Source: an uncultured Clostridia bacterium (GTDB lineage: Bacteria; Bacillota; Clostridia; Oscillospirales; Ruminococcaceae). From it: a stretch of DNA of 64,000 bases. Shown piece after piece: positions 10,655-38,916 of the stretch. The translations under genes were made by a program, and so were the position numbers. Under the pieces are notes generated by a model. The model had not been told where the DNA came from, did no database searches, and worked only from the letters and a program-made list of their open reading frames with translations. The stretch is taken from positions 62,001 to 126,000 of the forward strand of contig CAMVDP010000001.1 of NCBI GenBank assembly GCA_947166275.1, written 5' to 3'. Position 1 is the first letter of the stretch; every line of letters starts with the position of its first letter.

Positions 10655-11962
10655 GTGGATAAATTCACCGAGCTTCGCGCAAAATATGATACGTTCGTCT
10701 ATGAAAGCTTCACGCTCGACGACGCCGGCTTTTCTTTCCTATTCCGCATCGGGGAGTATGAATTCCGCCCCTCGTGGAAGTGGAGCGGTATACCCGATAC
10801 GGCGCTGACCCGATACATCGTGTTCTCACTCGGTATGGTGGAGCTGGTGAGCTACTGGAAGTGCGCCTGCCCGCCAAGAGTCATCGTAAAATGCGGCGCG
10901 CTCAACGATGAACAGATACTATGGTGGAAAAGGCTGTACTTCGATGGGCTTGGTGAGTTCTTCTACCGCAACGGGATAACTACTGACATCAAAAGCTTCA
11001 TGGACATCGAGTGCGAAAACTCCGATGTTCCGCGGTTCACGGATATCCGTGAAAACCGCTCCGGAGCTATGATACCGGTGGGCGGCGGCAAGGACAGCAT
11101 CGTCACGCTTGAGCTGCTGTCAGGCATGAAAGACCGCTCGTACTGCTTTCTGATAAATCCCCGTCCCACTACGCTCGGATGCGCTCACACCGCCGGATAT
11201 CCCGATGAGCGTATCATCGGACCGGGCAGAACTATCGACCCCGAGCTGCTGCGGCGTAATGCCGACGGCTGGCTGAACGGGCATACGCCGTTCTCTGCTG
11301 TCGTTGCGTTCTCGTCGTACCTTGCAGCAGTGATCTCCGGTTCACGATACATCGCGCTGTCCAACGAGTCAAGCGCGAACGAAGGCAATGTTGCGGGCAG
11401 TACCGTCAACCACCAGTACAGCAAAAGCACCGACTTCGAGCGGAAATTCCGTGAGTTCTGCTCAAAGTGGCTGCTTCCGGTGCCGGAGTATTTCAGTCTG
11501 CTGCGCCCGTGGACGGAATGGCGGATAACCCGCGAGTTCGTTAAATACCCGAAGTATTTTTCCGTGTTCAAGAGCTGCAATCTCGGCTCAAAGACCGACT
11601 CGTGGTGCGGCAGATGCGCGAAGTGCCTGTACGTGTACATCATGCTCGCGGGGTACCTCGACGATGACACATTGCACGGCATCTTCGGACGGGATATGCT
11701 TGCAGACACCGATCTCACGGAGATGTTTGACGCGCTGATCCACCCGGAATACGAAAAGCCCTTCGAGTGCGTGGGAACGCGTGACGAGGTACGGGTCGCG
11801 CTGGCGCACGCGATAAAGCTGCGTGAGGGGCAGTACCTGCCCGCACTTCTCGCGCGACACTCGATGCGCTGTGTTTACCAGCCGCCGAACATCGAGGGAC
11901 GATTTGACAATGACAACTTTGTACCACCCGAGCTTATCGGGCTGCTGAAAGGTGAAAAATGA
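10655..11962 (+). CDS. murL: UDP-MurNAc-L-Ala-L-Glu epimerase, MurL-like
   Basis: A 435-residue protein with the PP-loop-like ATP site GGGKDS (143-148), a downstream SNESSANEGN block (236-245) and a cysteine cluster (C308, C318, C321, C324) that could bind zinc. These features and the coupling to a MurD ligase match MurL, an ATP-dependent enzyme first described in Xanthomonas that inverts the terminal L-Glu of UDP-MurNAc-L-Ala-L-Glu to D-Glu. The start is GTG at 10655 with CGGAGG upstream. The last four bases overlap the murD start (ATGA). The assignment rests on recollection of motifs and on context; a generic PP-loop ligase is the alternative. Confidence 0.7.
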   Translation: MDKFTELRAKYDTFVYESFTLDDAGFSFLFRIGEYEFRPSWKWSGIPDTALTRYIVFSLGMVELVSYWKCACPPRVIVKCGALNDEQILWWKRLYFDGLGEFFYRNGITTDIKSFMDIECENSDVPRFTDIRENRSGAMIPVGGGKDSIVTLELLSGMKDRSYCFLINPRPTTLGCAHTAGYPDERIIGPGRTIDPELLRRNADGWLNGHTPFSAVVAFSSYLAAVISGSRYIALSNESSANEGNVAGSTVNHQYSKSTDFERKFREFCSKWLLPVPEYFSLLRPWTEWRITREFVKYPKYFSVFKSCNLGSKTDSWCGRCAKCLYVYIMLAGYLDDDTLHGIFGRDMLADTDLTEMFDALIHPEYEKPFECVGTRDEVRVALAHAIKLREGQYLPALLARHSMRCVYQPPNIEGRFDNDNFVPPELIGLLKGEK

Positions 11963-13371: not shown

Positions 13372-13581
13372 ATGGCGACAAAAAAAGTGATCGCTGACCG
13401 TGACGAGATAATGAAATTCCTCACATCGGTCATGCGGAACTCTGAGCTTTCCGAAAAGGACAGGCTCGGCGCGGCTTTCAAGCTCGGGAGGTACCTCGGA
13501 CTTGAAGCCGGCGACAGCGACAGCGGGGAGATACCCCGCGTGATAATCTATGACGGCACCGCAAAAGATAAACTTCCTTGA
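13372..13581 (+). CDS. Shortened phage terminase small subunit
   Basis: The 69-residue product contains ADRDEIMKFLTSVMRNSEL and KDRLGAAFKLGRYLGL, which match the oligomerisation part of Terminase_2-type small subunits. Such proteins are usually about twice this length and carry an N-terminal helix-turn-helix that binds the packaging site. That region is missing here, so specific packaging start is probably lost. A strong AAGGAG site precedes the ATG. The 3' end overlaps the large-subunit gene by 32 bases, the normal arrangement. Confidence 0.65.
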   Translation: MATKKVIADRDEIMKFLTSVMRNSELSEKDRLGAAFKLGRYLGLEAGDSDSGEIPRVIIYDGTAKDKLP

Positions 13582-14809
13582 TCTGATACCGCCGTCCTTC
13601 CACAGTGTCCACCGCGATATCGGGGAATGTGCGCATACTCACTACGCACTCTGCGGCGGACGCGGGAGCTGCAAATCATCGTTCGTGAGCCTTGAGATCG
13701 TGCGCGGCATTATGGCGGACAAGAACGCCAACGGGATAGCTGTGCGCAAGATCGGCAGAAACATTCGCGAGACAGTGTATGAGCAGCTTCTTTGGGCGAT
13801 AGATATGCTCGGAGCCACCGACCTATGGGACAGTCGCGTGAGCATTCCCGAGCTTGTCTATAGACCCACGGGACAGCGCATCATTTTCCGCGGCGCAGAT
13901 GACCCGAGGAAATTCAAATCCGTCAAATGCTCGTCGGGTATCATGAAATACATCTGGTTCGAGGAAGCCGATGAGTTTTCAGGTATCTGCGAGCTCGACA
14001 TGATCAACCAATCGCTTATGCGCGGTGAAGGTGATTTCTTCGTGTTCTATACCTACAATCCGCCGCGCAGCGCAGCCGCATGGATAAACACCGAGTTTTC
14101 AAGGCCACGCGCAGACAGGCTGACGCACCGCAGCGACTATCGCAGCGTTCCCCGGGAGTGGCTCGGCGACGCTTTTCTCGCTGAAGCGGAATATCTGAAA
14201 AGCTCCGACTCCCGCCGCTACAGGAATGAGTACCTCGGTGAGATCACCGGCACCGGCGCAGAGATATTTACCAACGTTACGCTGCGCCCGCTCGATGACG
14301 GACAGATCGCAGGCTTCGACAGGATATACCGCGGCATCGACTGGGGCTACGGTGCCGACCCGTTCGTGTACATCGCCGCGGCGCTCGAAAACCGCACGCT
14401 GTACATCTTCGACGAGTACTGGAAGTGCGGGGCGGGGTTCGATGAGATAGCGGCGGCGCTGGAGCACGTAAACGGGCTCATCACTGCCGACAGCGCCGAG
14501 CCGCGCTCGAATGACGAGCTGCGCGCCCGGGGCTTCAATATCCGCGGGACAAAAAAGGGACAGGGCTCGATAGAATACGGCATACGCATGCTGTGCGGGC
14601 TTGAGCGCATAGTCATAGACCCGGTACGCTGCCCGAACGCCGCACGTGAGTTCACCGGCTACAAGTTTGTGAGCGACGGTAACGGCGGATTCCGCGGAGG
14701 ATATCCCGACCGGGACAACCATACTATCGACGCGGTGCGCTACGCTCTTGAGGAGCACTTCTCAAGACGCACCGTGAAATTCGTCGACCGACGAAAATTA
14801 GGAATTTAA
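13550..14809 (+). CDS. Phage terminase large subunit, PBSX/Terminase_3 type
   Basis: A 419-residue packaging motor. The ATPase half has Walker A GGRGSCKSS (near residue 36) and Walker B IWFEEADEF; the nuclease half has the acidic residues IDWGYGADP (near 264) and DNHTIDAVRYALEEH near the C terminus. All key residues are present, so the protein could still be active. TerL cuts concatemeric phage DNA and pumps it through the portal, which is encoded next. Length is normal for the family. Confidence 0.9.
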   Translation: MTAPQKINFLDLIPPSFHSVHRDIGECAHTHYALCGGRGSCKSSFVSLEIVRGIMADKNANGIAVRKIGRNIRETVYEQLLWAIDMLGATDLWDSRVSIPELVYRPTGQRIIFRGADDPRKFKSVKCSSGIMKYIWFEEADEFSGICELDMINQSLMRGEGDFFVFYTYNPPRSAAAWINTEFSRPRADRLTHRSDYRSVPREWLGDAFLAEAEYLKSSDSRRYRNEYLGEITGTGAEIFTNVTLRPLDDGQIAGFDRIYRGIDWGYGADPFVYIAAALENRTLYIFDEYWKCGAGFDEIAAALEHVNGLITADSAEPRSNDELRARGFNIRGTKKGQGSIEYGIRMLCGLERIVIDPVRCPNAAREFTGYKFVSDGNGGFRGGYPDRDNHTIDAVRYALEEHFSRRTVKFVDRRKLGI

Positions 14810-14821
14810 AGGAGTGTAATC

Positions 14822-16063
14822 ATGTTCACTATTCCGGATAATACAACCATAACACCGAAGCTCGCGGTGAAGTTCATTCTCCGCCACTCGGCTTTCAGCA
14901 GCAGACTTGACAGGCTTTACAGCTACTATATAGGAGACCATGACATTCTCTCACGCACTGCCGACAAGGGCGCTAACAATCGTCTCGTCTGCAATCACGC
15001 AAAGTACATCACTGACTGTACCACCGGGTACTTTCTCGGCTCGCCCGTGCGATACGCGTCACGCTCCGGCAAGGATATCTCCGTTGTCACCGATGTGCTC
15101 AAGCGCGCCGACAGCGATACCGAGGATATAGACCTTGCCCGCTTCGGCTCTATCTACGGCACATCATACGAGATGCTGTACATCGACGGCGAGGGGCAGA
15201 TAAAACTCGCAAGTCTCGACCCGCGCAGCGCTTTCGTGGTATACGATGACAGCGTTGAGCAGAAGCCTGTGTTCGGCGTTTACTACATGCCCGTCAATTC
15301 AGGGGACGGATATCGCTCGGGCTACCGCGTGTACCTCTGCGACAGCTCCACCGTCACAGAGTTCTTCACTACAACGTCGTTCTCGATCACAAAGAAGTGC
15401 GAGCCGTATGAACACTTCTTCGGCGGCGTGCCGATCATCGAGTACTACAACAACTGGGACAAGCAGGGCGATTTCGAACAGGTCACAACGCTCATCGACG
15501 CGTACAATACTCTCCAGTCCGACCGCGTCAACGATAAGGAACAGTTCGTCGATTCGCTCCTCGTCATCAAGGGGCAGATACTCGGTGATACTGCAGAGGA
15601 ACAGAGCGACACATACAACGCTATCAAGCGCTATGGCGTGATGACTATCGATGACACCGGCGATGCAAAGTGGCTCACAAGACAGTTCGATGAGAGCTCC
15701 GTGGATATCCTGCGCCGCTCGCTTGAATCGGATATCCACAAGTTCAGCGGCGTGCCGTGCCTTTCCGATGAGAGCTTCTCCGGTAACAGCTCCGGCGTGG
15801 CTATCAAATATAAGCTGCTTGCGTTCGAGCAGATGACAAAGATAAAGGAACGCTACTTCACCGAGGGGCTCAAGATACGACTCGCGCTTATCGCGAACGC
15901 ACTTACTGTCCTCGGTTACTCCAAACCCGATGTCGGTGATATACAGATAATCTTTACACATAACCTGCCTGAGAATGAAGCGGAAATAGCGAAAACAGTA
16001 AGCCTGCTCAAAGACATACTGCCCGAAGACAAGCTCGTGAAGCTGCTTCCTTACGATATTTAA
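14822..16063 (+). CDS. Phage portal protein, SPP1 gp6-like
   Basis: A 413-residue protein with portal hallmarks: NRLVCNHAKYITDCTTGYFLGSP near the N terminus, VVYDDSVEQKPVFGVYY in the wing region, and the C-terminal stem segment with FEQMTKIKERYFTEGL. It forms the dodecameric DNA gate of the head. It follows terL by 12 bases with an AAAGGAG site. The reading frame is complete, but no head, scaffold or tail gene follows; a strong terminator stands 10 bases after the stop. Confidence 0.88.
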   Translation: MFTIPDNTTITPKLAVKFILRHSAFSSRLDRLYSYYIGDHDILSRTADKGANNRLVCNHAKYITDCTTGYFLGSPVRYASRSGKDISVVTDVLKRADSDTEDIDLARFGSIYGTSYEMLYIDGEGQIKLASLDPRSAFVVYDDSVEQKPVFGVYYMPVNSGDGYRSGYRVYLCDSSTVTEFFTTTSFSITKKCEPYEHFFGGVPIIEYYNNWDKQGDFEQVTTLIDAYNTLQSDRVNDKEQFVDSLLVIKGQILGDTAEEQSDTYNAIKRYGVMTIDDTGDAKWLTRQFDESSVDILRRSLESDIHKFSGVPCLSDESFSGNSSGVAIKYKLLAFEQMTKIKERYFTEGLKIRLALIANALTVLGYSKPDVGDIQIIFTHNLPENEAEIAKTVSLLKDILPEDKLVKLLPYDI

Positions 16064-21876: not shown

Positions 21877-22647
21877 ATGGCTATGCTTGAAGTAAGCAGA
21901 CTCTCAAAAAGCTTCGGTGAGCTCACCGTGCTGAAAGACATCAATTTTACCGTAGACAAGGGAGAAGTCGTGGCGGTCATCGGTCCGTCGGGAAGCGGCA
22001 AATCGACGCTGCTTCGTTGTGTGAACCAGCTTGAGCGTGCAAACGGCGGACGGATAACCGTATGCGGCTCCGATATGATGACGACCAACGAGAAAGGCAA
22101 GGCTGTATTTGCCGACACAGACACACTTCGCAGCATCCGTCTGAAGACCGGGCTCGTGTTTCAGAACTTCAACCTGTTCCCGCACATGACCGTGCTCCGG
22201 AACATCACAGAAGCTCCCACCGTGGTGCTCGGCATGTCAAAGACAGACGCAAGAGCAAAGGCGCTGGAGCTCCTTAAAAAGATGGGGCTTGAAGCCAAGG
22301 CGGATTCGTACCCGTGCGAGCTCTCGGGCGGTCAGCAGCAGCGAGTTTCCATTGCAAGAGCCCTCGCGCTCGACCCGGAGATACTGTTCTTTGACGAGCC
22401 CACCTCGGCGCTCGACCCGGAGCTCACCGGCGAGATACTCAAGGTCATCAAGGAGCTCGCGAACGATGGTATGACTATGGTGATAGTCACACATGAAATG
22501 GCGTTCGCGCACGATGTCGCGGACAGAGTCGTGTTCATGGAGGACGGGTATATCGTGGACGAGGGAACTCCCGACAAGCTCTTCGGCGAGGAAGCTTCGG
22601 AGCGCGTCAAGCAGTTCCTCAGCAGGTTCAACAATTTCGGAGCGTGA
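21877..22647 (+). CDS. Amino-acid ABC transporter ATPase, GlnQ/HisP-like
   Basis: A 256-residue ABC ATPase with Walker A GPSGSGKST (about 36-44), Q-loop FQNFNLFPHMTVLRN, signature LSGGQQQR, Walker B ILFFDEPTSALDPE and the switch histidine in VTHEM. The NLFPHMTVL wording is characteristic of polar amino-acid importers. It ends five bases before the FRG gene, which appears to be in the same transcript. It uses ATP to drive the preceding permease. Confidence 0.93.
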   Translation: MAMLEVSRLSKSFGELTVLKDINFTVDKGEVVAVIGPSGSGKSTLLRCVNQLERANGGRITVCGSDMMTTNEKGKAVFADTDTLRSIRLKTGLVFQNFNLFPHMTVLRNITEAPTVVLGMSKTDARAKALELLKKMGLEAKADSYPCELSGGQQQRVSIARALALDPEILFFDEPTSALDPELTGEILKVIKELANDGMTMVIVTHEMAFAHDVADRVVFMEDGYIVDEGTPDKLFGEEASERVKQFLSRFNNFGA

Positions 22648-22651
22648 CGAT

Positions 22652-23479
22652 ATGATAGAGACCGTATTTATAGACAGCATCGACGGAGTCATGAAGATGA
22701 TCTCCGAGCAGAAGTTCAATGAGGACATCAGACGCGTGCGAAGCCCGTACTTCTATCGGGGGATGCCCGACTCGAAGTACAGACTCACAACAAGCCTGCG
22801 GCTCAACTGCAAGCACCTGCACAAGGAGCTTGAACCGTCGGTGCTGCGCAATTTCAGCAAGTACGCATGTATCGAGGATCCGACTATAAGCGACTCGATA
22901 TGGAAGCAGATGATGATAGGTCAGCATCACGGGCTTCCCACAAGGCTTCTCGACTGGACGTACTCCCCGTTGGTCGCGCTGCACTTCGCGAATACCGAGA
23001 CTAACTTCAACAAGCTCGAAAAACGCGACTGCGTGGTATGGAGACTCGATATGCAGGCTGCCAATGATAACCTGCCGAGCCGTTACAAAGCCGCACTTCG
23101 CAAGCAGGGCTCATTCGTGTTCTCGGTCGATACTCTGACTTCCGTCGTTGACAGCATCGAGCAGTATGACATAGATATGGGCGCGGAGGCATTCGTGAAT
23201 ATCGAACCGCCGTCAGTCGACCAGAGGATAATCAACCAATACTCGTTCTTCTCGATAATCCCCTCCGGCATCGAAGACATAGAAGACTTCCTTGAAAAGC
23301 ATACCGCGCATACCATGCGATATGTCATAAGCAAGGACATCAGATGGAACATACGCGATATGCTCGACCAGTTCAATATCAGCGAGCGTATCATGTATCC
23401 CGGGCTTGACGGACTCTCACGTTCGCTTGCAAGACACTATTTCGTAAGAGACGAAAACAATACGGAGCCGAAAATATGA
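22652..23479 (+). CDS. FRG-domain protein
   Basis: The 275-residue protein carries the FRG signature: FYRGMPDSKYRL near residue 34 and QHHGLPTRLLDWTYSPLVAL at 91-110. The FRG domain is named after its F/Y-R-G motif; it is widespread, of unknown activity, and often seen in mobile or defence contexts. No signal peptide or membrane helix is visible, so it should be cytosolic. It is unusual to find it wedged between two ABC transporter gene sets: it starts five bases after the amino-acid ATPase and overlaps the next ATPase gene by four bases (ATGA). Confidence 0.8.
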   Translation: MIETVFIDSIDGVMKMISEQKFNEDIRRVRSPYFYRGMPDSKYRLTTSLRLNCKHLHKELEPSVLRNFSKYACIEDPTISDSIWKQMMIGQHHGLPTRLLDWTYSPLVALHFANTETNFNKLEKRDCVVWRLDMQAANDNLPSRYKAALRKQGSFVFSVDTLTSVVDSIEQYDIDMGAEAFVNIEPPSVDQRIINQYSFFSIIPSGIEDIEDFLEKHTAHTMRYVISKDIRWNIRDMLDQFNISERIMYPGLDGLSRSLARHYFVRDENNTEPKI

Positions 23480-30342: not shown

Positions 30343-30386
30343 ACGCCCGACATGTTCACCACAGTGAATATGTCGGACGTTTTTTG
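30343..30386 (+). terminator. Strong intrinsic terminator after the VWA gene
   Basis: The arms ACGCCCGACATGTTCAC and GTGAATATGTCGGACGT pair almost fully with a short loop, and six Ts follow. It isolates the RNA-rich region downstream from the VWA transcript. Confidence 0.88.
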
Positions 30387-30416: not shown

Positions 30417-30445
30417 TTGACAAGCAACGGATTTCGTGGTAAAAT
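30417..30445 (+). promoter_or_regulatory. Consensus promoter of the structured-RNA region
   Basis: TTGACA (30417-30422) and TAAAAT (30440-30445) are spaced by 17 bases, and an A-rich stretch upstream may act as an UP element. The start would be near 30452. No gene starts for the next 800 bases, so it most likely drives a non-coding RNA or a very long leader. Confidence 0.8.
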
Positions 30446-30451
30446 AATGCC

Positions 30452-30550
30452 GTGGTTAGAAAATGATGCAAACAAATAAAAAGGGAAAGACTGTGTGTAA
30501 ACCGCATTGCAGCCCGCCCCCGAAATAATTTGTTTGCGATTTTTCATTTT
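30452..30550 (+). ncRNA. Candidate small RNA with C-rich loop
   Basis: AATGA plus GCAAACAAAT (30462-30477) pair with ATTTGTTTGC (30528-30537) and TCATT (30544-30548), closing a loop of about 50 bases, and a T-rich run follows. The loop contains CAGCCCGCCCCCG, a C-rich single-stranded stretch of the type that pairs with Shine-Dalgarno sequences in Gram-positive regulatory RNAs. A GGGGGAGC stretch at 30608-30615 could pair with it instead, forming a larger fold. Whether it ends here or is the first domain of a 490-base RNA cannot be told by eye. No reading frame of note is present. Confidence 0.5.
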
Positions 30551-30688
30551 TTTCCAGGAAAAGCTAAAGTTTTGAGAAACTCTGCCGATATTATTTCAGA
30601 GAGTTAAGGGGGAGCTCCGAAAAGAGCACCCGGAAAAACCGAAGCTCATAATATTTATGCTTTATGCAGCCATTGGCGAATTTGCGTT

Positions 30689-30945
30689 AAGCGGACTAAT
30701 TGTAAACAAATTTTAAGACAAGAGGAGGTAAACAGTCAACTGACCGACACAGAATAATTCGTAAGGAAATTGTAATTGTAAATGTATGCGGATAGGGTAT
30801 GCCGCAAAGATTTTGAAAGTGGGAAATGTTTTCAGGGAAATAACTCTGCCCTTTTGCAATTCTTATGAATGGTGTCACGGTGCTGTTTACTGCAACAGTT
30901 GAATTAAGCTTTGTTTACAATTGGTCCTCTTTTTATTTTTTATTT
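30689..30945 (+). ncRNA. Candidate 257-base structured RNA with long closing stem
   Basis: Arms 30689-30716 and 30904-30931 pair over about 28 positions with few mismatches (core AATTGTAAACAAA with TTTGTTTACAATT), followed by a T-rich tail TTTTATTTTTTATTT. Inside, nested pairs continue: GTAAACAG with CTGTTTAC, ACC plus GACAC with GTGTC plus GGT, ATTCGTAAG with CTTATGAAT, then a TGCGG/CCGCA hairpin. This rod with a branched tip looks like a stable RNA. It does not show tmRNA, RNase P, SRP or riboswitch motifs that I know; 6S RNA is a distant alternative. No promoter is obvious directly upstream, so it may be a domain of a transcript begun near 30452. Confidence 0.6.
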
Positions 30946-30951
30946 AAACCC

Positions 30952-30972
30952 GTCCCGGCGGTTTCCCGGGAC
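30952..30972 (+). repeat. GC-rich hairpin after the structured RNA
   Basis: GTCCCGG and CCGGGAC form a perfect 7-bp stem around CGGTTTC. It lies directly after the T-rich tail of the 257-base element and could stop read-through or mark the 3' end. Confidence 0.5.
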
Positions 30973-31012
30973 TTAAACGCATCATAAAACCACTTGTTCC
31001 TTTACAATTAAA

Positions 31013-31175
31013 GCGCTTGCGGAAAGCGCATCCGCCGTGAGGCGGTAAACCTGCCAAGAACAGCATGTCCGCCGCTTGCAGCAAAGCGTCAGGGTGAGAT
31101 CCCCCGCTGCGGTTCCCGCAGGTGAGCCACAAGGGCAGTGCCCCGATACGATACCGATGCAATGGCCGCATCGGT
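31013..31175 (+). promoter_or_regulatory. Multi-hairpin leader of the AAA+/ClpP operon
   Basis: Six perfect short hairpins follow one another: GCGCTT/AAGCGC (31013-31029), CCGCC-GTGA-GGCGG (31032-31045, a GNRA-type loop), CGCTT/AAGCG (31073-31088), CTGCGG/CCGCAG (31107-31121), GGGC/GCCC (31133-31143) and ACCGATGC/GCATCGGT (31153-31175). The next gene starts at 31262. The density is far above chance. It matches no riboswitch I can name. No clear promoter lies between the 257-base element and this leader. Confidence 0.55.
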
Positions 31176-31261
31176 CACTCGTAACGGGTCCGACCTGTAT
31201 ACCATTAAGAGATAAACAAACGACCACCGCTTACAGCAGATGCTGAGAAAGGAAAACAACT

Positions 31262-31987
31262 ATGGCTAAAACTCCGATCACTAACGTTCACCCCGAGTTC
31301 ACTCTTCTTATCACCGGCTCCGCGAACAATGACCTCGCTGCTGAAAAGGCTGCTGCGAGCGGCGTTTACATCGTTCACCACAAGCTCGCTTATGTCGCTC
31401 CGTACGAGAAGTACGATGAGCTTCGCAAGCTCCAGCTCAAGGTCAGACACTCTCCCTGCGCGGTCGGCAAGAAGATCTGCGCGGCGATCGACATCTCCGA
31501 CTGGATCGACCATGAGGAGGAAGATTACTTCGTCGCTTCGGTGAAGTACTTCCACGACCACACGGATCGCATGAACTTCATGTTCACCGTCGGTGAATGC
31601 GACATGGCACGCGTACAGAAGATGTACGTCAAGCTCCGTACGTACATGCGCGGCGCGATGAGCGTGGATGAGACCTTCATGAAGGTCGAGGCGCTCGCGG
31701 CACACATCGGGGAGCGGACAAATGATACCGATGCCGCGGTGCTTCTCGCGCAGGTGCTCATGGAAGATGCCATGAAGCCGCTTCGCACATATCCCGCAGT
31801 CAAGAGCATCTGCCTCGACATCGAGGATATGAACGCAAAAGGCATCATAACCCTCGAGGATGTTAAAGCGTATCTCAGTTCCGAAAACTCGCTTATACAC
31901 CTTATGAATAAGGAACTCGCGCTTAAATACTCGAAAAGCACAGACGAAAGAAAGACAGAGTTGACAGGCAGCCACAGCGCTGCCTGA
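31262..31987 (+). CDS. Unrecognised protein heading the AAA+/ClpP operon
   Basis: The 241-residue product has no signal peptide or membrane helix. It has a possible Rossmann-type beginning (FTLLITGSANNDL), then a region CAAIDISDWIDHEEEDYF and a segment FMFTVGECD (107-113), which recalls the core and sensor strands of AAA+ ATPases, but no Walker A is present. It could be a degenerate AAA+ partner of the downstream ATPases; that is inference. GAAAGGA lies upstream of the ATG. It is followed after 19 bases by the VirD4-like gene. Confidence 0.6.
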   Translation: MAKTPITNVHPEFTLLITGSANNDLAAEKAAASGVYIVHHKLAYVAPYEKYDELRKLQLKVRHSPCAVGKKICAAIDISDWIDHEEEDYFVASVKYFHDHTDRMNFMFTVGECDMARVQKMYVKLRTYMRGAMSVDETFMKVEALAAHIGERTNDTDAAVLLAQVLMEDAMKPLRTYPAVKSICLDIEDMNAKGIITLEDVKAYLSSENSLIHLMNKELALKYSKSTDERKTELTGSHSAA

Positions 31988-32006
31988 ACGGGAAAGGAGA
32001 CTGCTT

Positions 32007-33794
32007 ATGACTTCCGCAACCACCAACACCTTTGACTACGCTTCCGACTGGTCCGACCTCACGTACCCCGAGACCAACGACATCACCTTCGACAACACGA
32101 TCCGCTCGTCATACCGCAGGGTAGATCTCCGGAAGGAGCACTTCGAGGCGGGCGGCATCCCCATTCTCGTAAAGGACAACTACGCGTACCTCAATGACCT
32201 TACCGAGAATACACTGATATTCGGTCAGACCGGCTCGAAGAAGACCAGATGCGCTATCGGACCAGACATTATAATGACTGCCGGTGCCGGTGAGTCCGCG
32301 TTTGTCACGGATGTCAAAGGAGAGCTGAGCTCCAACCCGAAGATCCGGGGATTCCTTGAGGATCACGGAGTACGGACGATCATGATCGACTTCCGTACAT
32401 TCGACAAGGATGGCTTCAACATTCTTGAGCACGCGTACAAGCTGTACAAGTCCGGTCAGAAGGACAAGTCAATGGCGGAATGTGCGGTGCTGCTCAACAT
32501 GCTTGCAAGCAAGTATGAGCGCGGCGCCAAAGACCCGTTCTGGCACGGCAACGCTAAACAATACCTGCGGCCGCTTATAGAAATGGTGTTCCGCATAGGC
32601 GTTGACTCCGGAGATGACGAAAAAGTCAATCTGCTCTCGCTGAGCGCGCTCTGCAACCGTACAACGTCGGATGTTATCGCAGAAACGTTCAAAGAGCATC
32701 CGAGCGTTTTCGAGGCAAAGCTGATGCCGAACAATCTCGCATCGCTAAAAGCGGTCGTGGATAACCCGCCGAACACTATGGCTAATATCCTCTCCACCGC
32801 ACAGACCATGCTTGAGGAGTTCACGCTGCAGCCCGACCTCACGAAGATGCTCTCCAAGACCACATTCGATGTAGAGAGTATGTATGAGAAGCCGACCTGC
32901 GTTTTCCTGGTAGTTCCCGATGAGACATCCGCGTATGACGCTACCGCGGGTATGCTGATCGACAGTTTCTACGGTACGCTCATCGAAGCATACAGCAAGA
33001 AATATATGAACAAGCAGGAGCCGAAATGCCGCATAAACTTTATATGCGACGAGTTCTGCAACCTCGCTATCAACGACATGAAGGCGAAGATATCAGCGAG
33101 CCGAGGCAGAGCGATGCGCTGGGTGCTTGTCTGCCAGTCCAAGGATCAGATGGAGACTTCCTACGGCGCTGCCGCGGGTACCATCGTAGGCAACTGTCAG
33201 AACACACTGTTCCTCCAGAGCTGCGACGAGAACCTGCTCGACTATATCTGCCGCATGTGCGGTACCACAGAGGTGAGCAGATCCGGTTCGGAGCCGCTCG
33301 TAACTCCGGATATGCTCAAGACGCTGCGCAAGGAGATCAAATACAAAGAAGCGCTCTTCATCAACGACAAGATACGCTACTTCACCCGTCTCCCGGATAT
33401 CGACAGCTACGACTTCCTCAACAAGTACGCCGAACAGCCGAAGAAACGCGGCCGCAAGCCTGCGGGAAACAAGTTCACTACACTCACCGGTTTCGACATC
33501 GACGACATCATATCGGTTTTTGGAAATCAGTCCGTTCAGAATGACGATTACGACACCGACGACTTTTACAACGATGTTTCATTCGTTCCGTTCACGGACG
33601 AGGACTTCGACGAAAGCCATATCCCCGATCCCGACTCACCGGACTTTGACGAAGATGACTCGGACTTTGACGAAGATGACTCGGACTTTGACGAAGATGA
33701 CCCGTTCAATTTCGGAGATCCTTACTACGACGAAGATGAACCGTACGACGATGATGATGACGACGACAACGATGATGACGACGACATCTTCTGA
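32007..33794 (+). CDS. Soluble VirD4/TraG-like ATPase with acidic tail
   Basis: A 595-residue protein of the VirD4/TraG/TraM-recognition superfamily. The Walker A is GQTGSKKT (73-80), in which the usual glycine before the lysine is replaced by lysine; Walker B is INFICDEF (343-350), and the motif WVLVCQSKDQM follows at 372-382. The N-terminal membrane helices of coupling proteins are missing, so it should be soluble. Residues 540-595 are almost all Asp/Glu, with three DFDEDDS repeats. No relaxase, VirB4 or channel gene is near. A hexameric motor feeding the neighbouring proteases, rather than DNA transfer, is an inference from the operon. A hairpin separates it from clpP. Confidence 0.75.
   Translation: MTSATTNTFDYASDWSDLTYPETNDITFDNTIRSSYRRVDLRKEHFEAGGIPILVKDNYAYLNDLTENTLIFGQTGSKKTRCAIGPDIIMTAGAGESAFVTDVKGELSSNPKIRGFLEDHGVRTIMIDFRTFDKDGFNILEHAYKLYKSGQKDKSMAECAVLLNMLASKYERGAKDPFWHGNAKQYLRPLIEMVFRIGVDSGDDEKVNLLSLSALCNRTTSDVIAETFKEHPSVFEAKLMPNNLASLKAVVDNPPNTMANILSTAQTMLEEFTLQPDLTKMLSKTTFDVESMYEKPTCVFLVVPDETSAYDATAGMLIDSFYGTLIEAYSKKYMNKQEPKCRINFICDEFCNLAINDMKAKISASRGRAMRWVLVCQSKDQMETSYGAAAGTIVGNCQNTLFLQSCDENLLDYICRMCGTTEVSRSGSEPLVTPDMLKTLRKEIKYKEALFINDKIRYFTRLPDIDSYDFLNKYAEQPKKRGRKPAGNKFTTLTGFDIDDIISVFGNQSVQNDDYDTDDFYNDVSFVPFTDEDFDESHIPDPDSPDFDEDDSDFDEDDSDFDEDDPFNFGDPYYDEDEPYDDDDDDDNDDDDDIF
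33641..33703 (+). repeat. Three 21-bp tandem repeats in the acidic tail
   Basis: Three near-identical 21-base units encode DFDEDDS-type heptads. Lengths can change by slippage without shifting the frame, so the acidic tail may vary between strains. Confidence 0.8.
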
Positions 33795-33812
33795 TCGCAA
33801 AACGAACGTGCA

Positions 33813-33843
33813 GTCATATCCCCGTTACAGGCGGGGATATGAC
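33813..33843 (+). promoter_or_regulatory. Perfect 12-bp intergenic hairpin before the ClpP-like gene
   Basis: GTCATATCCCCG and CGGGGATATGAC pair perfectly around TTACAGG. No T run follows (AAAAC comes next), so mRNA processing or stability is more likely than termination. Confidence 0.65.
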
Positions 33844-33881
33844 AAAACATAAAACTACCGATTATCAAGGAGGTACAGACT

Positions 33882-34463
33882 ATGATCCCGAAGATCAGCA
33901 TTATCGACAAGCAGGGCGTTCACGACTACGACCTCGTTTCCCACGCTTACGAGCGCGAGCGCAAGATCTTCCTCTTCGATGAGGTCAATTCCAACAGCGC
34001 ACTTGAGCTCATTCTCCAGCTTGAATACCTCGACAGCATATCCGGCGACGATATCACCATATACATCAACTCGCCCGGAGGAGCTATCAAGGACGGCTAC
34101 GCGATACTCGACGCAATGGCGCGCTGCCGCAGCGATATCCGCACGGTCTGCACCGGATTCGCGGCATCGTTCGGCTCTGTGATCCTCGCCTGCGGCACAA
34201 AGGGAAAGCGCTTCATAACTCCAGAAGCCGAGGTCATGATACACCAGCCCCTCGGCGGCGCACAAGGTCAGGCTTCGGATATCGAACGTGCCACAAGACA
34301 TATCCTCAAAGCAAAGGATAAGCTCATGAGACTGCTTTCGGACAGGACCGGTCAGTCGATCGAGCAGGTCACGAGCGACTGTGACCGAGACACATACCTT
34401 TCAGCCGAAGAAGCTCTGAACTACGGGCTCGTTGACGCTATCCTCACTGAAAATCTCAAGTGA
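33882..34463 (+). CDS. ClpP-family serine peptidase
   Basis: The 193-residue protein has the ClpP fold: YINSPGGAIKDGYAILDAM for the oxyanion region, the catalytic serine in GFAASFGS (S96), the histidine in MIHQP (H121) and the aspartate in CDRDTYLSAEEALNYGLVD (D170). All three are present, so it should be active. It is distinct from the housekeeping ClpP wording (GQAASMGA) and is encoded with AAA+ proteins, so it is probably a dedicated peptidase chamber of this operon. An AAGGAGG site precedes the ATG. Confidence 0.9.
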   Translation: MIPKISIIDKQGVHDYDLVSHAYERERKIFLFDEVNSNSALELILQLEYLDSISGDDITIYINSPGGAIKDGYAILDAMARCRSDIRTVCTGFAASFGSVILACGTKGKRFITPEAEVMIHQPLGGAQGQASDIERATRHILKAKDKLMRLLSDRTGQSIEQVTSDCDRDTYLSAEEALNYGLVDAILTENLK

Positions 34464-34508
34464 GGACAGCAAACAACGCGAGCCTGCACCGGACAGGAGG
34501 TCAGAATC

Positions 34509-34697
34509 ATGTCGAAGAACGTTAAATTCAGCAAGCTCATGCAGAACACTTTCATCGTGGGGACAGGATTCTTCCTCGCGAAAGTGCTTCCGTCGCTGCC
34601 GCAGCTCGTGCTCTTCTCCGTACTCCACTGCGCGGCTGTGCTAATTACACTTCTGATATATCTGGCACTGCTTTTGGCCATAATAGTCAGCCGATAG
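34509..34697 (+). CDS. Small membrane protein of the AAA+/ClpP operon
   Basis: A 62-residue peptide with a basic N terminus and a hydrophobic stretch from about residue 14 to 60, enough for one or two membrane helices. A strong AGGAGG site precedes the ATG, and it is spaced 45 and 32 bases from its neighbours, so it is likely a real gene. It might bring the otherwise soluble proteins to the membrane. No family recognised. Confidence 0.65.
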   Translation: MSKNVKFSKLMQNTFIVGTGFFLAKVLPSLPQLVLFSVLHCAAVLITLLIYLALLLAIIVSR

Positions 34698-34729
34698 CTG
34701 CAAACAGAACGAAAGGAGAGCGATATACC

Positions 34730-35320
34730 ATGACCGAAAAGGACATACTTACCGAGATGCTGAAGCGCGGCGACACTGAGGCTGCTTACAAGCTCGGCAA
34801 GCTTTGTTCTGCGGCGAATGACTATGACGATGCCGTTAAATACTACCTTATCGGCGCCGACAACGATCACTTGCTGTCTATGAACGCGCTTGGCACGCTG
34901 TACTACACCAAGGGCAGGAATGACCGTGAAAAGATGAACGGTCTGAACTACTGGTACCTTGCAGCATCAAAGGGCTGCGTGCAAGCGATGGCCAATCTCG
35001 CGCTTGCGTATTTCGATGATGATAAGCTGGATGAAGCCGAGGAATACTGGAAAAAAGCCGCGGAGCTCGAACTGCCGGAAGCGTATCTCGGTATCGGAAA
35101 AGTCGCGCTTCGGCGGGGAGACTACAAGGCTGCGGAGACTGCATTTCAGAAGGCTGCCGACATGGGCTGCACCGCAGCGTGGAACGATCTCGGCATACTT
35201 ATGCAGATGATCGGAAACAATGTAAGAGCCGGTATTTGTTTTACGAATGCTGCAATGAAAGGAGACAAGACTGCAGCTGCAAACCTTGAAAGACTGAAAA
35301 GAAAAGGAGAGCCGATATGA
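34730..35320 (+). CDS. Sel1/TPR-repeat protein
   Basis: The 196-residue product is made of about five repeats of 34-38 residues with the Sel1/TPR pattern, for example AAYKLGKLCSAANDYDDAVKY, AMANLALAYFDDDKLDEAEEY and AYLGIGKVALRRGDYKAAETA. Such helical repeats usually bind proteins, so it may be a substrate adaptor or scaffold for the proteases. It overlaps the next gene by four bases. GAAAGGAG precedes its start. Confidence 0.85.
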   Translation: MTEKDILTEMLKRGDTEAAYKLGKLCSAANDYDDAVKYYLIGADNDHLLSMNALGTLYYTKGRNDREKMNGLNYWYLAASKGCVQAMANLALAYFDDDKLDEAEEYWKKAAELELPEAYLGIGKVALRRGDYKAAETAFQKAADMGCTAAWNDLGILMQMIGNNVRAGICFTNAAMKGDKTAAANLERLKRKGEPI

Positions 35321-38300
35321 AGATGATCCCTTCCAGCTTTCTCAAGTACCTGCTCACGCTCACCGAGCGCAACGCTCCCACCGGCATCAAGTTCTCGCCG
35401 GAGTCTTTCCTGCTCACTGTTGCTATTGTATTTATCGACTGCCCTACTCTTATACGTGTCAACGAAGCAACACTCGAGACCGCATTCGAAAACATGCTGC
35501 TCCGCGAATACAGGACAACACCCCAGAAGCTTGCGGAAAAGATAATCGCTGACAGAAAAGAAATGCTTGAATCGGTGTATGATCACAACCAAAAGAAGTA
35601 CACATCAGAGATAGGCGACAAGCTTCTGGAAGAGATCATGGAAGAGATCGGATCGCGCCGCAAAGAGAAATACCCGTACTGGGAAGAAGTGGACTGGGCA
35701 AAGCCCAGCCAGAGGATCCTTGTGAACGAATTTCTGAAAGCTCTCGTGTGGTACAAGCCCACACCGCATGTGACAAAGCTTCTTGAAGACCTGCGCAACG
35801 ACAGCATAACCATTATCAATGACGAAGGATTAAGGTCAAAGATAATGCTGTCAAAGACCGCGCAGAGCCGCAAAGATCTGATGGCGCTTTCAGTTCAGAC
35901 CCGTGAGCTCTATGACGGGCTCACATCGATCGTATTCGGTCAGGAAAAGGCGATACGAACTGTAGCGGAAGGGTACTTCAACGCCGAGCTCGAACTGCTT
36001 ATCAATGAAGCGCAGAGGGTAAAGGCCGCTGTGAAAGCTACAGGATCCAGATTCAAGAAACGCCATTCGCGTGAAGACCGGCTTCTTCAGACTATACAGG
36101 AACGTACGCCTCCCGATACATCCCGGCTGATCTTAAGAAACGGTCCGAGGAACGTATTCCTTTTCGCGGGGCCTCCCGGTGTCGGAAAGACCTTTCTCGC
36201 AAGACAGATCGGCAAATATCTGAAGCGCGAAGTGCGCATATTCGACATGACACGCTTTACTTCCGCCCAGGAAGGAAAGGCGGAATTCGTGGGGTCCGAT
36301 TCAGTATTCACCAATTCGCAGAAAGGCGATGTTACCGAATATGTTGATGATCACCCCGATGCAGTGGTAGTTTTCGACGAGATAGAAAAAGCGCACCGCT
36401 CGGTACAGAACCTGTTTCTGCAGATACTTGAAGGCGGCAAGATAACAGATGTACACACAAGAAAAGAAGTTTCGTTTCTGAACAACATCGTTATTTTCAC
36501 CACCAACGCCGGCAGGACGCTGTACGATGACCCCGACCGTGACCTTGAATCGATGCCGCGCAGCGTGGTCGCGGATGCGCTGCTGAAGGATATCGATCCC
36601 ACCACCGGTCTGACGCTGCTGCCGCCGGAGCTTTGCTCCCGTCTATCGGGCGGAAGCATAATCATGTTCAACCACATAAGCGCCGGAGCTCTCCACAGCA
36701 TTGCCAAGGAAGAGCTTGAGATGCGGATAAACTCGTTCTCAAACGCACTCGAACTCAAGACCGACATCGGGAACGAAGTATGCTCCGCGCTGTTGTACTC
36801 GCTGGGCGGACGCGCTGACGCAAGGCTCGTGCGCGGCAGAAGCGCGGATTTCTTTACGGAGAACATATACAAGCTCGCGGACAAGCTCGTACCCGATCAG
36901 GTCTCCTCACTGAAGCAGATCGAATTCCGCGCAGAGATACCCACGGACGACAAGGATGTGGCTGCGCTCTTCAACATAGACGAGCCGCTCGGAGGGCTTG
37001 TGTTCGGCAGCTTCACACCGGTCTCCGAAAAGTGCACGTTTACTGTTACCACCGACAGTAACGAAGCGCTGAAGGCTGTCACAGACGACAAGATCAGGTT
37101 CGTGATCGCGGATATGTCGCTCGGAGAAAAGACGCTCGACCTCGTGAAGGATATACTCCACGTGGAACACAATCTTCCGATATGGCTCGTCCGAGGAGAT
37201 GTTGAACCGGAGATCGAACGTGAATACAGAGCACTGAAGATAGCCGGTACGCTTCCCGCACCGAATGCCGGTAAGGAGACCTCAGCATTCTCGGTAGCAA
37301 TGGATATGATCGCGGATGATATCCACCGCGACGATATGATGATCAAGCTCGCACGCTCGAACAAGGAGCTCTCTTTCATCACCGACTGCAAAGAAAAGGA
37401 TGATATTGTCACGGTGACACTGCGCGGCATGAAGCTCGTGACAGCAGTGCGAGCCGAGGACAGGAAAGACCTGCTCGACTCCGACGGAATACCCGAGGTG
37501 AAGTTCGACGACGTTATAGGCGCGAAAGACGCCAAGGAAGAGTTGAAGCTGTTCGCCAAATTTCTCCGTGAACCGAAGAAATTCGCACGTGCAAAGCTCC
37601 CGATGCCAAAGGGAGTCATACTCTACGGACCTCCCGGCACCGGCAAGACAATGCTCGCAAAGGCAATGGCTGCCGAGGCAGGCGTGCCGTTCATTCCCAC
37701 CGAGGGAAACCGCTTCAAGAAAAAATACAGCGGTGAGGGCGCCGCACTTGTCCATGAGATCTTTGCCCGCGCGAGAAGCTACGCACCCTGTGTGCTGTTC
37801 GTCGATGAAGTGGATAGTATCGCCGCAGAACGTACTGCGACGGATAACTCGCTGAACAGTGATGTTCTGAACGCGTTCCTCACTGAAATGGACGGGTTCC
37901 GCGCAGGGTCCGACAAACCTGTGTTCGTGCTCTGCGCGACCAACTTTGATGCCAGACATGATGATTCCCAGCTCGATAAAGCGTTCCTGCGCAGATTTGA
38001 CAATCGTATTTTTGTCAGACTTCCGGACCGCGACGAGCGCAGACTTTTCATGCAGAGACGCATGGACGCGAACAGTGCGTTCTCACTGTCTGCAAAGCAG
38101 CTCGACAACATCGCAGATCGCTCTGTCGGCATGAGTCTCGATAACATCGATTCTGTGTTTGACATGGCATTAAGAATGGCAGTTCGGCATGATATGCTTC
38201 AGGTCACAGACGATATCATCGACAAAGCGCTCGAAGAGTTCAATTACGGCAGCGAGAACAACAAGACTGACCGCGACTCTCTGAAACAGACTGCATGTCA

Positions 38301-38811
38301 CGAGTCCGGCCACGCGATAGTCAGCAGACTTGTCGGGGAAAAGCCCGCTTACATAACTATCGTGTCACGCGGTAATTTCGGCGGATATATGCGGCGGGAT
38401 GTCGATGAGAACAAGGGCGTGTTCACCAAACAGGAGCTCCTCGACCGCATCTGCGTAAGCCTCGGAGGACGCGCCGCGGAGCTTGTCATCTACGGTGAGA
38501 CTGCGGGCATAAATACCGGCGCTTCCTCGGATATCGCCAATGCCACAGCGATCGCACGCAACATGATCTGCGGCTATGGTATGGATCACGAGCTCGGGAT
38601 GGCAGTCATCGGCAGCACACGCAACAGCGAACTCGAAGCACAGATAAACCGCGCCGTGAACCGCATACTCACCGAACAGCTCGAAAGAGCGAAGGGTATG
38701 CTTGTCACGTACAGGGACGCGCTCAACAAAGTGTCTTCTGCGCTGTACAAGAAGAACTCCCTGACCGGCGCGGACTTCGAAAAGATATTTGTCAAGGCTT
38801 GCAAAAAATAA
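35317..38811 (+). CDS. Clp-type AAA+ / receiver-like / FtsH-type AAA+ and M41 protease fusion
   Basis: A 1164-residue multidomain protein. After a unique N-terminal region (1-200), a Clp-type AAA+ module has Walker A GPPGVGKT (285-292), Walker B VVFDEIEKAH (351-360) and sensor FTTNAG. Residues about 560-650 look like a receiver fold (FVIADMSLG, IWLVRGD) without the full phospho-acceptor set. The C-terminal half is FtsH-like: Walker A GPPGTGKT (771-778), Walker B LFVDEVDS, the zinc site HESGH (995-999) and the third ligand region TGASSDIA (D1072). FtsH membrane helices are absent. It probably unfolds and degrades proteins and may also feed the ClpP-like peptidase. I know no described protein with this order. 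It overlaps the Sel1 gene by four bases. Confidence 0.85.
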   Translation: MKMIPSSFLKYLLTLTERNAPTGIKFSPESFLLTVAIVFIDCPTLIRVNEATLETAFENMLLREYRTTPQKLAEKIIADRKEMLESVYDHNQKKYTSEIGDKLLEEIMEEIGSRRKEKYPYWEEVDWAKPSQRILVNEFLKALVWYKPTPHVTKLLEDLRNDSITIINDEGLRSKIMLSKTAQSRKDLMALSVQTRELYDGLTSIVFGQEKAIRTVAEGYFNAELELLINEAQRVKAAVKATGSRFKKRHSREDRLLQTIQERTPPDTSRLILRNGPRNVFLFAGPPGVGKTFLARQIGKYLKREVRIFDMTRFTSAQEGKAEFVGSDSVFTNSQKGDVTEYVDDHPDAVVVFDEIEKAHRSVQNLFLQILEGGKITDVHTRKEVSFLNNIVIFTTNAGRTLYDDPDRDLESMPRSVVADALLKDIDPTTGLTLLPPELCSRLSGGSIIMFNHISAGALHSIAKEELEMRINSFSNALELKTDIGNEVCSALLYSLGGRADARLVRGRSADFFTENIYKLADKLVPDQVSSLKQIEFRAEIPTDDKDVAALFNIDEPLGGLVFGSFTPVSEKCTFTVTTDSNEALKAVTDDKIRFVIADMSLGEKTLDLVKDILHVEHNLPIWLVRGDVEPEIEREYRALKIAGTLPAPNAGKETSAFSVAMDMIADDIHRDDMMIKLARSNKELSFITDCKEKDDIVTVTLRGMKLVTAVRAEDRKDLLDSDGIPEVKFDDVIGAKDAKEELKLFAKFLREPKKFARAKLPMPKGVILYGPPGTGKTMLAKAMAAEAGVPFIPTEGNRFKKKYSGEGAALVHEIFARARSYAPCVLFVDEVDSIAAERTATDNSLNSDVLNAFLTEMDGFRAGSDKPVFVLCATNFDARHDDSQLDKAFLRRFDNRIFVRLPDRDERRLFMQRRMDANSAFSLSAKQLDNIADRSVGMSLDNIDSVFDMALRMAVRHDMLQVTDDIIDKALEEFNYGSENNKTDRDSLKQTACHESGHAIVSRLVGEKPAYITIVSRGNFGGYMRRDVDENKGVFTKQELLDRICVSLGGRAAELVIYGETAGINTGASSDIANATAIARNMICGYGMDHELGMAVIGSTRNSELEAQINRAVNRILTEQLERAKGMLVTYRDALNKVSSALYKKNSLTGADFEKIFVKACKK

Positions 38812-38873
38812 TTACCCTCCGGGAACGAGCATAATGTACAGGCGTTCATAAACATACCGGAGGAAAACGAATA

Positions 38874-38916
38874 CCCACCCGTGAAGGACGAGCATCGTCC
38901 TTCACGGGTGGGCTTT
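38874..38916. terminator. Perfect 18-bp terminator hairpin between the AAA+ operon and galK
   Basis: Arms 38874-38891 and 38895-38912 are perfectly complementary with a GCA loop, then CTTTAT. It lies between two convergent operons and can serve both. A second imperfect inverted repeat (CCTCCGG/CCGGAGG) lies at about 38816-38862. Confidence 0.85.

Follow-up and report, generated by a model that had tools for sequence, protein, structure and literature searches.

A soluble VirD4-like motor paired with a dedicated ClpP in gut Clostridia: a candidate ATP-dependent protease

In the genome of an uncultured Clostridia bacterium of the Ruminococcaceae (assembly GCA_947166275.1, 1.88 Mb, 81% complete), a gene for a soluble VirD4/TraG-like ATPase is flanked by a gene for p1, a protein of no known family, and a gene for a ClpP-like peptidase. 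The three genes lie in the 64,000-nucleotide stretch analysed here (the window; contig CAMVDP010000001.1, positions 62,001 to 126,000 of the forward strand). This p1–VirD4–ClpP core recurs as a tight gene unit in gut Clostridia beyond the source genome, and a functional linkage between the VirD4-type motor and the ClpP of the module is well supported. An earlier note, made from the letters of the window, had as its central idea that a ClpP-like peptidase and a soluble VirD4-like motor form a pair unconnected with conjugation; this idea is well supported by pairing counts and by a comparison of neighbours. With a little better than an even chance, the core encodes an ATP-dependent protease whose dedicated ClpP chamber is served by a soluble ring motor of the VirD4/TrwB (FtsK-HerA) type in place of a Clp/Hsp100 AAA+ unfoldase; the physical complex, the unfolding activity, the substrate, and the biological role are inferred. 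The core comprises the following genes.

31262..31987, + strand: p1, 241 aa, first gene of the core, no family match
32007..33794, + strand: soluble VirD4/TraG-like ATPase, 595 aa, Pfam T4SS-DNA_transf (PF02534, 5.8e-29), Walker A GQTGSKKT, acidic C-terminal tail
33882..34463, + strand: ClpP-like peptidase, 193 aa, Pfam 1.4e-63, Ser/His/Asp positions kept, outside the housekeeping lineage

Recurrence of the core

Among 396 genomes of the window's family, p1 has a match in three, the source genome included, and in both of the others p1 adjoins VirD4-like and ClpP genes. Further finds are G136 and G385 from the family search, G707, G732, G655, and G538 from a search at class level (391 genomes), and one contig (L192) from IMG/VR. 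Across the loci, three arrangements exist, namely p1–VirD4–ClpP, ClpP–p1–VirD4, and ClpP–VirD4, with motor–ClpP gaps mostly of −50 to +90 bp. The first arrangement (class 1) is found in seven loci, the window, L126, L127, L192, L196, L197, and L199, and the second (class 2) in L200 and L206. In L158 (G136), the order is VirD4–ClpP, p1 is undetected, and a stop is noted in the motor. The distribution of the module within Clostridia is patchy, and a phylum-wide search of 329 genomes yields nothing above 267 bits besides the 707 bits of the source genome itself. The whole-genome searches total 1969 genomes, with repeats and differing queries included.

A second clade of short VirD4-like proteins exists in the window's family, with ClpP usually located just upstream. 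Thirty VirD4-like frames of 380–480 aa occur among the matches listed, a partial list with at most three candidates scored per genome, and 28 of them were fetched irrespective of ClpP. A same-strand ClpP lies within 1 kb in 22 of these 28 loci; the six without it are L274, L280, L291, L292, L293, and L298, of which L291 and L293 have conjugation-type scores and L292 is truncated by the end of its contig. The two remaining frames are G094:C44, which has a ClpP, and G128:C5, which has none. In a class search of 291 genomes, two matches exceed 490 bits, both in the family member G063, and no genome outside the family exceeds 361 bits. Short-clade pairs were also sought on plasmids, phages, and viral contigs and rejected there: the two plasmid or phage records examined (L300, L301) hold no ClpP beside the motor, and neither does the single IMG/VR locus of 38 that scored as short clade (L302). 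The ClpPs from a ClpP search of plasmids stand mostly under ordinary names.

Pairing of motor and ClpP, and the conjugation context

With clade thresholds that were set once the scores had been seen, ClpP adjoins 10 of 16 first-clade motors and 25 of 29 short-clade motors (23 of 27 if L263 and L288, which were reached by way of ClpP, are dropped). The count for conjugation-type relatives is 0 of 122; many of their loci carry only about 0.5–1.2 kb of flank and some even less. Fisher's test gives 3e-26 for 33/43 versus 0/122, on rows that are related by descent and not independent. In a tree of the VirD4-like proteins (short search, midpoint root), an SH-aLRT support of 99 marks both the short clade (26 rows, three of them lacking ClpP) and the class-1/2 clade (16 rows).

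Furthermore, the distances among the motors correlate with those among their own ClpPs (Mantel r = 0.66, 30 pairs, 0 of 5000 shuffles), both within the short clade (r = 0.84, 0/5000) and within classes 1 and 2 (r = 0.42, 55/5000). In eight genomes, the motor follows the module ClpP (r = 0.53, 26/5000), as against r = −0.04 (2820/5000) for the housekeeping ClpP. Between 38 pair loci and nine conjugation-type loci (two from one contig), blastp finds little in common besides VirD4; the other matches are a few recombinases, TPR/Sel1 stretches, and one small, one methylase-like, and one unknown protein, all named by eye. No recurring conjugation genes stand near the pairs, in flanks that range from a few hundred bases to about 12 kb and with no relaxase profile run, which agrees with the earlier note's remark that no relaxase or channel gene is present in the six-gene region.

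These results bear on a conjugation remnant, in which a decayed VirD4 gene would stand beside ClpP by chance. In its favour, the window's motor is clearly related to the coupling proteins of the CD1115 family (192 bits). However, the pairing recurs and yet is found at none of the 122 conjugation-type loci, the distances of motor and module ClpP correlate, conjugation neighbours do not recur and are absent around the pair in the fetched loci, and the source genome contains no second match to the motor. A remnant is thereby rejected, with a very small probability left to it.

Structural features of the motor and p1

The predicted structure of the window's motor (pLDDT 67) has its best match in Cag-beta (8dol, E 2.2e-12) and also matches TrwB (1e9s). 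The fold and profile are thus those of the VirD4/TraG coupling proteins (NCBIfam CD1115, TrwB, and Cag-beta). Unlike these proteins, the window's motor lacks a membrane anchor and stands next to ClpP, with neither relaxase nor channel genes seen around it, and its score against CD1115, 192.1 bits for the window protein only, falls under the curated cut-off of 250 bits. At a hydropathy cut-off of 1.9, an N-terminal membrane segment is found in none of 45 first-clade and short-clade proteins; the soluble VirD4-like motor described in the earlier note is thus supported by PF02534 together with hydropathy. By eye, the C-termini of the L200 and L206 motors (11060–11314 and 11341–11595) resembled bL12/ClpS, a candidate that was dropped after Pfam found nothing alike.

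HerA-type motors are known to be paired with an effector, as in HerA–NurA and HerA–Sir2, and the common idea is an FtsK-HerA motor joined to a separate enzymatic partner. In contrast to those pairs, the partner here is a peptidase, the ATPase belongs to another clade, and a defence role is a candidate.

The model of p1 is poor (pLDDT 50, two sequences). The highest-ranked fold matches belong for the most part to AAA+ proteins, with no E ≤ 0.001 among them, and a P-loop-like stretch is visible by eye in two class-2 relatives. Profile comparisons give no support for p1 as an AAA+ protein, which leaves a weak hint from the fold, and p1 might, as a guess, be a degenerate AAA+/P-loop protein.

Structural features of the module ClpP

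The catalytic Ser and His are present in all 15 aligned ClpPs, one of them housekeeping, and the Asp in 14 of the 15. The intact ClpP-like peptidase of the earlier note is therefore confirmed by the Pfam match and the kept triad positions. A separate housekeeping ClpP (265–290 bits) is located elsewhere in 8 of 8 other genomes tested with a class-1/2 module, counting G136, where p1 was not found. The source assembly contains no housekeeping ClpP and only a 76-bit relative, which may reflect incompleteness of the assembly. Module and housekeeping ClpPs are split by a branch with supports of 85/92 (28 rows) and 96/98 (44 rows, 30 module and 14 housekeeping). The short-clade ClpPs form one group (100/100), and the class-1/2 ClpPs do not.

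To our knowledge, all known ClpP partners are Clp-type AAA+ rings. Several ClpP positions that, by the usual pocket numbering, would belong to the unfoldase-docking site are altered in the module. Positions 22, 26, 28, and 48 are invariant in 14 housekeeping ClpPs and replaced in most module ClpPs; at position 48, the Leu of 14/14 housekeeping ClpPs becomes Glu or Asp in 7/10 class-1/2 ClpPs and Met in 12/20 short-clade ClpPs. In addition, the Tyr at position 82 in 13/14 housekeeping ClpPs is Arg in 6/10 class-1/2 ClpPs, and position 114, Leu in 14/14 housekeeping ClpPs, is Thr in 5/10 class-1/2 and Leu in 15/20 short-clade ClpPs. As in ClpXP, ClpCP, and ClpAP, a ClpP chamber with an intact triad is encoded beside an ATPase; unlike those systems, the ATPase is of the VirD4/TrwB type without an LGF loop by eye, and several residues at the putative docking site in ClpP are replaced.

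The proposed protease and the evidence against it

The membrane anchor is gone and a second ClpP is encoded alongside in three arrangements; most simply read, this would mean that the motor passes its pulled substrate on to ClpP. The motor would be a conjugation coupling protein that lost its membrane anchor. The substrates of coupling proteins exit towards the membrane, and ClpP may sit on this exit side, in the place of the membrane channel; protein or protein–DNA substrates would be pulled through the motor and cleaved in the chamber, with p1 as a possible non-catalytic adaptor or gate. Moreover, coupling-type motors handle protein–DNA conjugates, so the motor may pull proteins off DNA for degradation. 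A more specific proposal, tentative and falling somewhat short of an even chance, is that the coupling-protein motor took over the job of the ClpP unfoldase, exchanging a conjugation channel for a degradation chamber, and that it may strip and shred DNA-bound proteins such as the relaxases of incoming elements.

A series of observations weighs against a protease formed by motor and ClpP. ClpP is missing beside six first-clade motors (L133, L134, L159, L193, L194, and L198; the upstream side of L134 is cut by a contig end 11 bases from the locus start), two of which, L133 and L198, do possess p1, and four short-clade loci have no ClpP within 1 kb; hence, some motors may work without ClpP. In the tree, the two clades are separated by conjugation-type VirD4s, so the pairing either arose twice or was lost. 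On the side of the motor, L196, L206, and L278, but not the window's protein, each show one possible membrane segment when the hydropathy cut-off is 1.6; the ATPase motifs deviate, with KK in the Walker A motif of 13/16 first-clade members and DD in the Walker B motif of 10/10 aligned short-clade members; and the ends of the short motors display no docking motif of the LGF/IGF type by eye. Coupling proteins transport DNA as well as protein, and the structure models are of single chains only. On the side of ClpP, position 62 is largely conserved, as are positions 23 and 114 in the majority of short-clade ClpPs. Module ClpPs are also more variable overall (mean share of the commonest residue 0.61 and 0.54, versus 0.80 for the housekeeping group), and variability in the pocket columns does not exceed that of the protein as a whole (0.59 and 0.49, versus 0.76); the replacements at the docking site may therefore be general divergence.

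The even variability of the pocket and the four short-clade loci without ClpP would also suit a regulatory link, in which a VirD4-like protein with a job of its own is processed or turned over by ClpP, perhaps with the aid of the ClpX or ClpC of the housekeeping system, and gene pairing alone is silent on which partner acts on the other. Such a link is nevertheless rather improbable, as most module ClpPs carry other residues at four positions that never vary in 14 housekeeping ClpPs and the ClpP distances track the motor and not the species.

Defence-related comparisons

The main rival to the proposed protease is a DNA-triggered one: the VirD4-like ring would act on DNA, in the manner of HerA-type motors in defence, and switch on ClpP as an effector against invaders, which might destroy DNA-bound proteins, for instance relaxases or phage proteins. 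The fold relatives of the motor include HerA and an anti-phage defence complex, and the PADLOC model mad8 matches the motors of L192 (7.6e-9), L270 (1.6e-6), and L281 (0.01), with a HerA model also matching that of L192 (7e-5). TIR, CHAT, protein-kinase, or HamB-like helicase genes lie within about 10 kb of some class-1 loci, and the patchiness of the module within Clostridia points the same way. However, no PADLOC model matches p1, the VirD4-like protein, or ClpP of the window, or the three other ClpPs tested (L192, L276, and L281), and the neighbouring genes differ from locus to locus. A DNA-triggered protease is thus unlikely, although it deserves more credence than a regulatory link. Going by some of the neighbours, a role of the core in conflict or quality control is plausible.

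The surroundings of the loci include further recurring genes. A gene of a macro plus helix-turn-helix family, with the domains assigned by a profile run on the L287 copy only, stands near seven short pairs (L270, L271, L272, L273, L275, L287, and L290), upstream of the pair except in L275, where it is downstream on the other strand. A gene of about 250 aa and no known family recurs in seven other loci (L274, L277, L279, L285, L295, L296, and L298), directly upstream of ClpP or, at the ClpP-less loci L274 and L298, of VirD4. In L197 (12628–15963), a CHAT-domain gene (6.5e-41) and two small genes lie near the VirD4-like gene, and a similar CHAT arrangement is seen by eye in L198 (13099–16608).

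No description of a VirD4–ClpP pair was found among open-licence papers, covered through partial listings and mostly through titles and the starts of abstracts. Passages of PMC12419801, PMC6669625, and PMC11051846 are not relevant to such a pair.

The Clp/FtsH fusion and the six-gene set in the window

In the window, the core is followed by three more genes, and the earlier note regarded all six, together with a leader RNA, as one system. The six open reading frames are confirmed on the + strand, tightly spaced as that note had it, with gaps of 19, 87, 45, and 32 bp and a 4-bp overlap of the last pair. Besides the core, the locus (30417–38912) contains the following features.

30417..30445, + strand: promoter-like site, TTGACA-17-TAAAAT with TG ahead of the −10, 11/12 matches, a consensus match only
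34509..34697, + strand: 62-aa hydrophobic (membrane) peptide, no family
34730..35320, + strand: TPR protein, 196 aa, TPR_2 3.3e-14; Sel1 0.02, under its cut-off
35317..38811, + strand: 1164-aa AAA+/AAA+/M41 fusion, from domain searches
38874..38912, + strand: terminator-like hairpin of 18 pairs, 3' of the last gene

The single promoter ahead of the genes corresponds to the site at 30417–30445, and promoter-like matches across the region are at chance level (6 versus 6.1 expected). Terminator-like matches are somewhat over chance (15 versus 10.4 expected), and the strongest + strand stems lie at 30347–30376, 3' of the upstream gene, and at 38874–38912. The core, the membrane peptide, the TPR protein, and the Clp/FtsH-type protease, which would be soluble and self-contained, probably share a common transcript in the source genome. 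As for the single products, the family-less p1 and the tiny membrane protein of the earlier note are both as described, its 1164-residue protein does carry two AAA+ modules and an M41 peptidase, and its Sel1 scaffold is a repeat protein of the TPR and not the Sel1 family.

In the fusion, an N-terminal region is followed by a Clp D2-type AAA+ domain, a middle part that weakly resembles a receiver domain (Response_reg 0.021, short of the cut-off), an AAA+ domain of the FtsH type, and an M41 peptidase with HESGH at 995. As in FtsH, an AAA+ domain is combined with an M41 peptidase bearing HExGH. Unlike FtsH, the fusion has no clear membrane anchor (hydropathy maximum 1.87, versus 3.4 in the genome's own FtsH-like protein), possesses the extra Clp D2-type AAA+ domain, and remains below the curated FtsH cut-off (318 bits, cut-off 600). 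In PADLOC, its AAA domains give matches to IetA (8.6e-39) and to further AAA models, and the TPR protein and the 62-aa peptide have weak matches. A soluble Clp D2/FtsH-M41 fusion is likewise without a description in the open-licence literature searched.

Relatives of the fusion lie elsewhere. In 147 other family genomes, one is full-length (G094) and one is a contig-edge fragment (G037), and the scan of GTDB contigs (80 loci kept) yields at least six more full-length relatives (L041–L045 and L050); L046, from an Oscillospiraceae bacterium, is the same 3274-base contig and frame as in G037. No p1, VirD4, or ClpP relative is found at the fusion-relative loci L039–L046 and L050, some of which are on short contigs, or by phmmer (E ≤ 0.01) in 82 loci (L039–L120), mostly around ordinary Clp/FtsH relatives. 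Three of seven relatives (L039, L041, and L042) have a YbjN-like protein next to the fusion, and only that of L042 passes the Pfam cut-off. Accordingly, the fusion belongs to a family of its own, which has different neighbours and is not part of the core. As an unfoldase for ClpP it is not favoured, with no LGF loop (the motif [LIV]G[FL] is absent from it) and no ClpP near its relatives. The eight full-length members of its family (window, L039, L041–L045, and L050) include some near YbjN-like, TIR, or kinase genes. In G094, the fusion and two ClpP–VirD4 pairs are found on three contigs (C23, C44, and C10).

The leader claimed as some 800 bases of paired RNA is not supported. No Rfam family matches at gathering score within the window, a permissive threshold gives a single weak match (E 0.091), and seven overlapping 200-nt stretches over 30440–31240 have fold z-scores of −2.03 to +1.68, inside the span of −4.8 to +1.72 from 25 random stretches of the window. 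RNA-gated proteolysis, which the earlier note had suggested, thus finds no support in the Rfam and folding tests.

A single machine made of six genes and a leader RNA would agree with the one promoter and one terminator that frame the genes. The full set, however, occurs at no other fetched locus, and a conserved six-gene system is rejected; no other module locus inspected joins the fusion with the core (L200 holds a different AAA+ protein, which matches the fusion at 2.4e-21), the fusion occurs elsewhere with other neighbours, and the RNA structure signal is lacking. An RNA-gated machine is accordingly highly improbable. The comparison of gene neighbourhoods across Clostridia that the earlier note proposed as a check divides the set in two: the p1–VirD4–ClpP half is conserved, and the fusion half is scattered without conserved neighbours.

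Other genes in the window

At 13550–16063 of the window, a phage terminase large subunit (Terminase_3, 1.3e-29) adjoins an SPP1-type portal (3.4e-97); by eye, the following gene resembles purL; further phage genes were not searched for. At 22643–23479, an FRG-domain protein (2.6e-23), whose longest frame overlaps the gene before it, is flanked by genes that resemble ABC transporters by eye.

Significance

Because the pairs are compact, comprising two or three genes, the claim of a protease built from a VirD4/TrwB-type motor and a dedicated ClpP is directly testable. If true, it would mean that a pump for DNA and protein can be rewired into a protease, and it would test how far the docking of ClpP depends on the LGF loop. 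It would also provide a job for small VirD4-like genes that match conjugation families and near which no transfer genes are seen.

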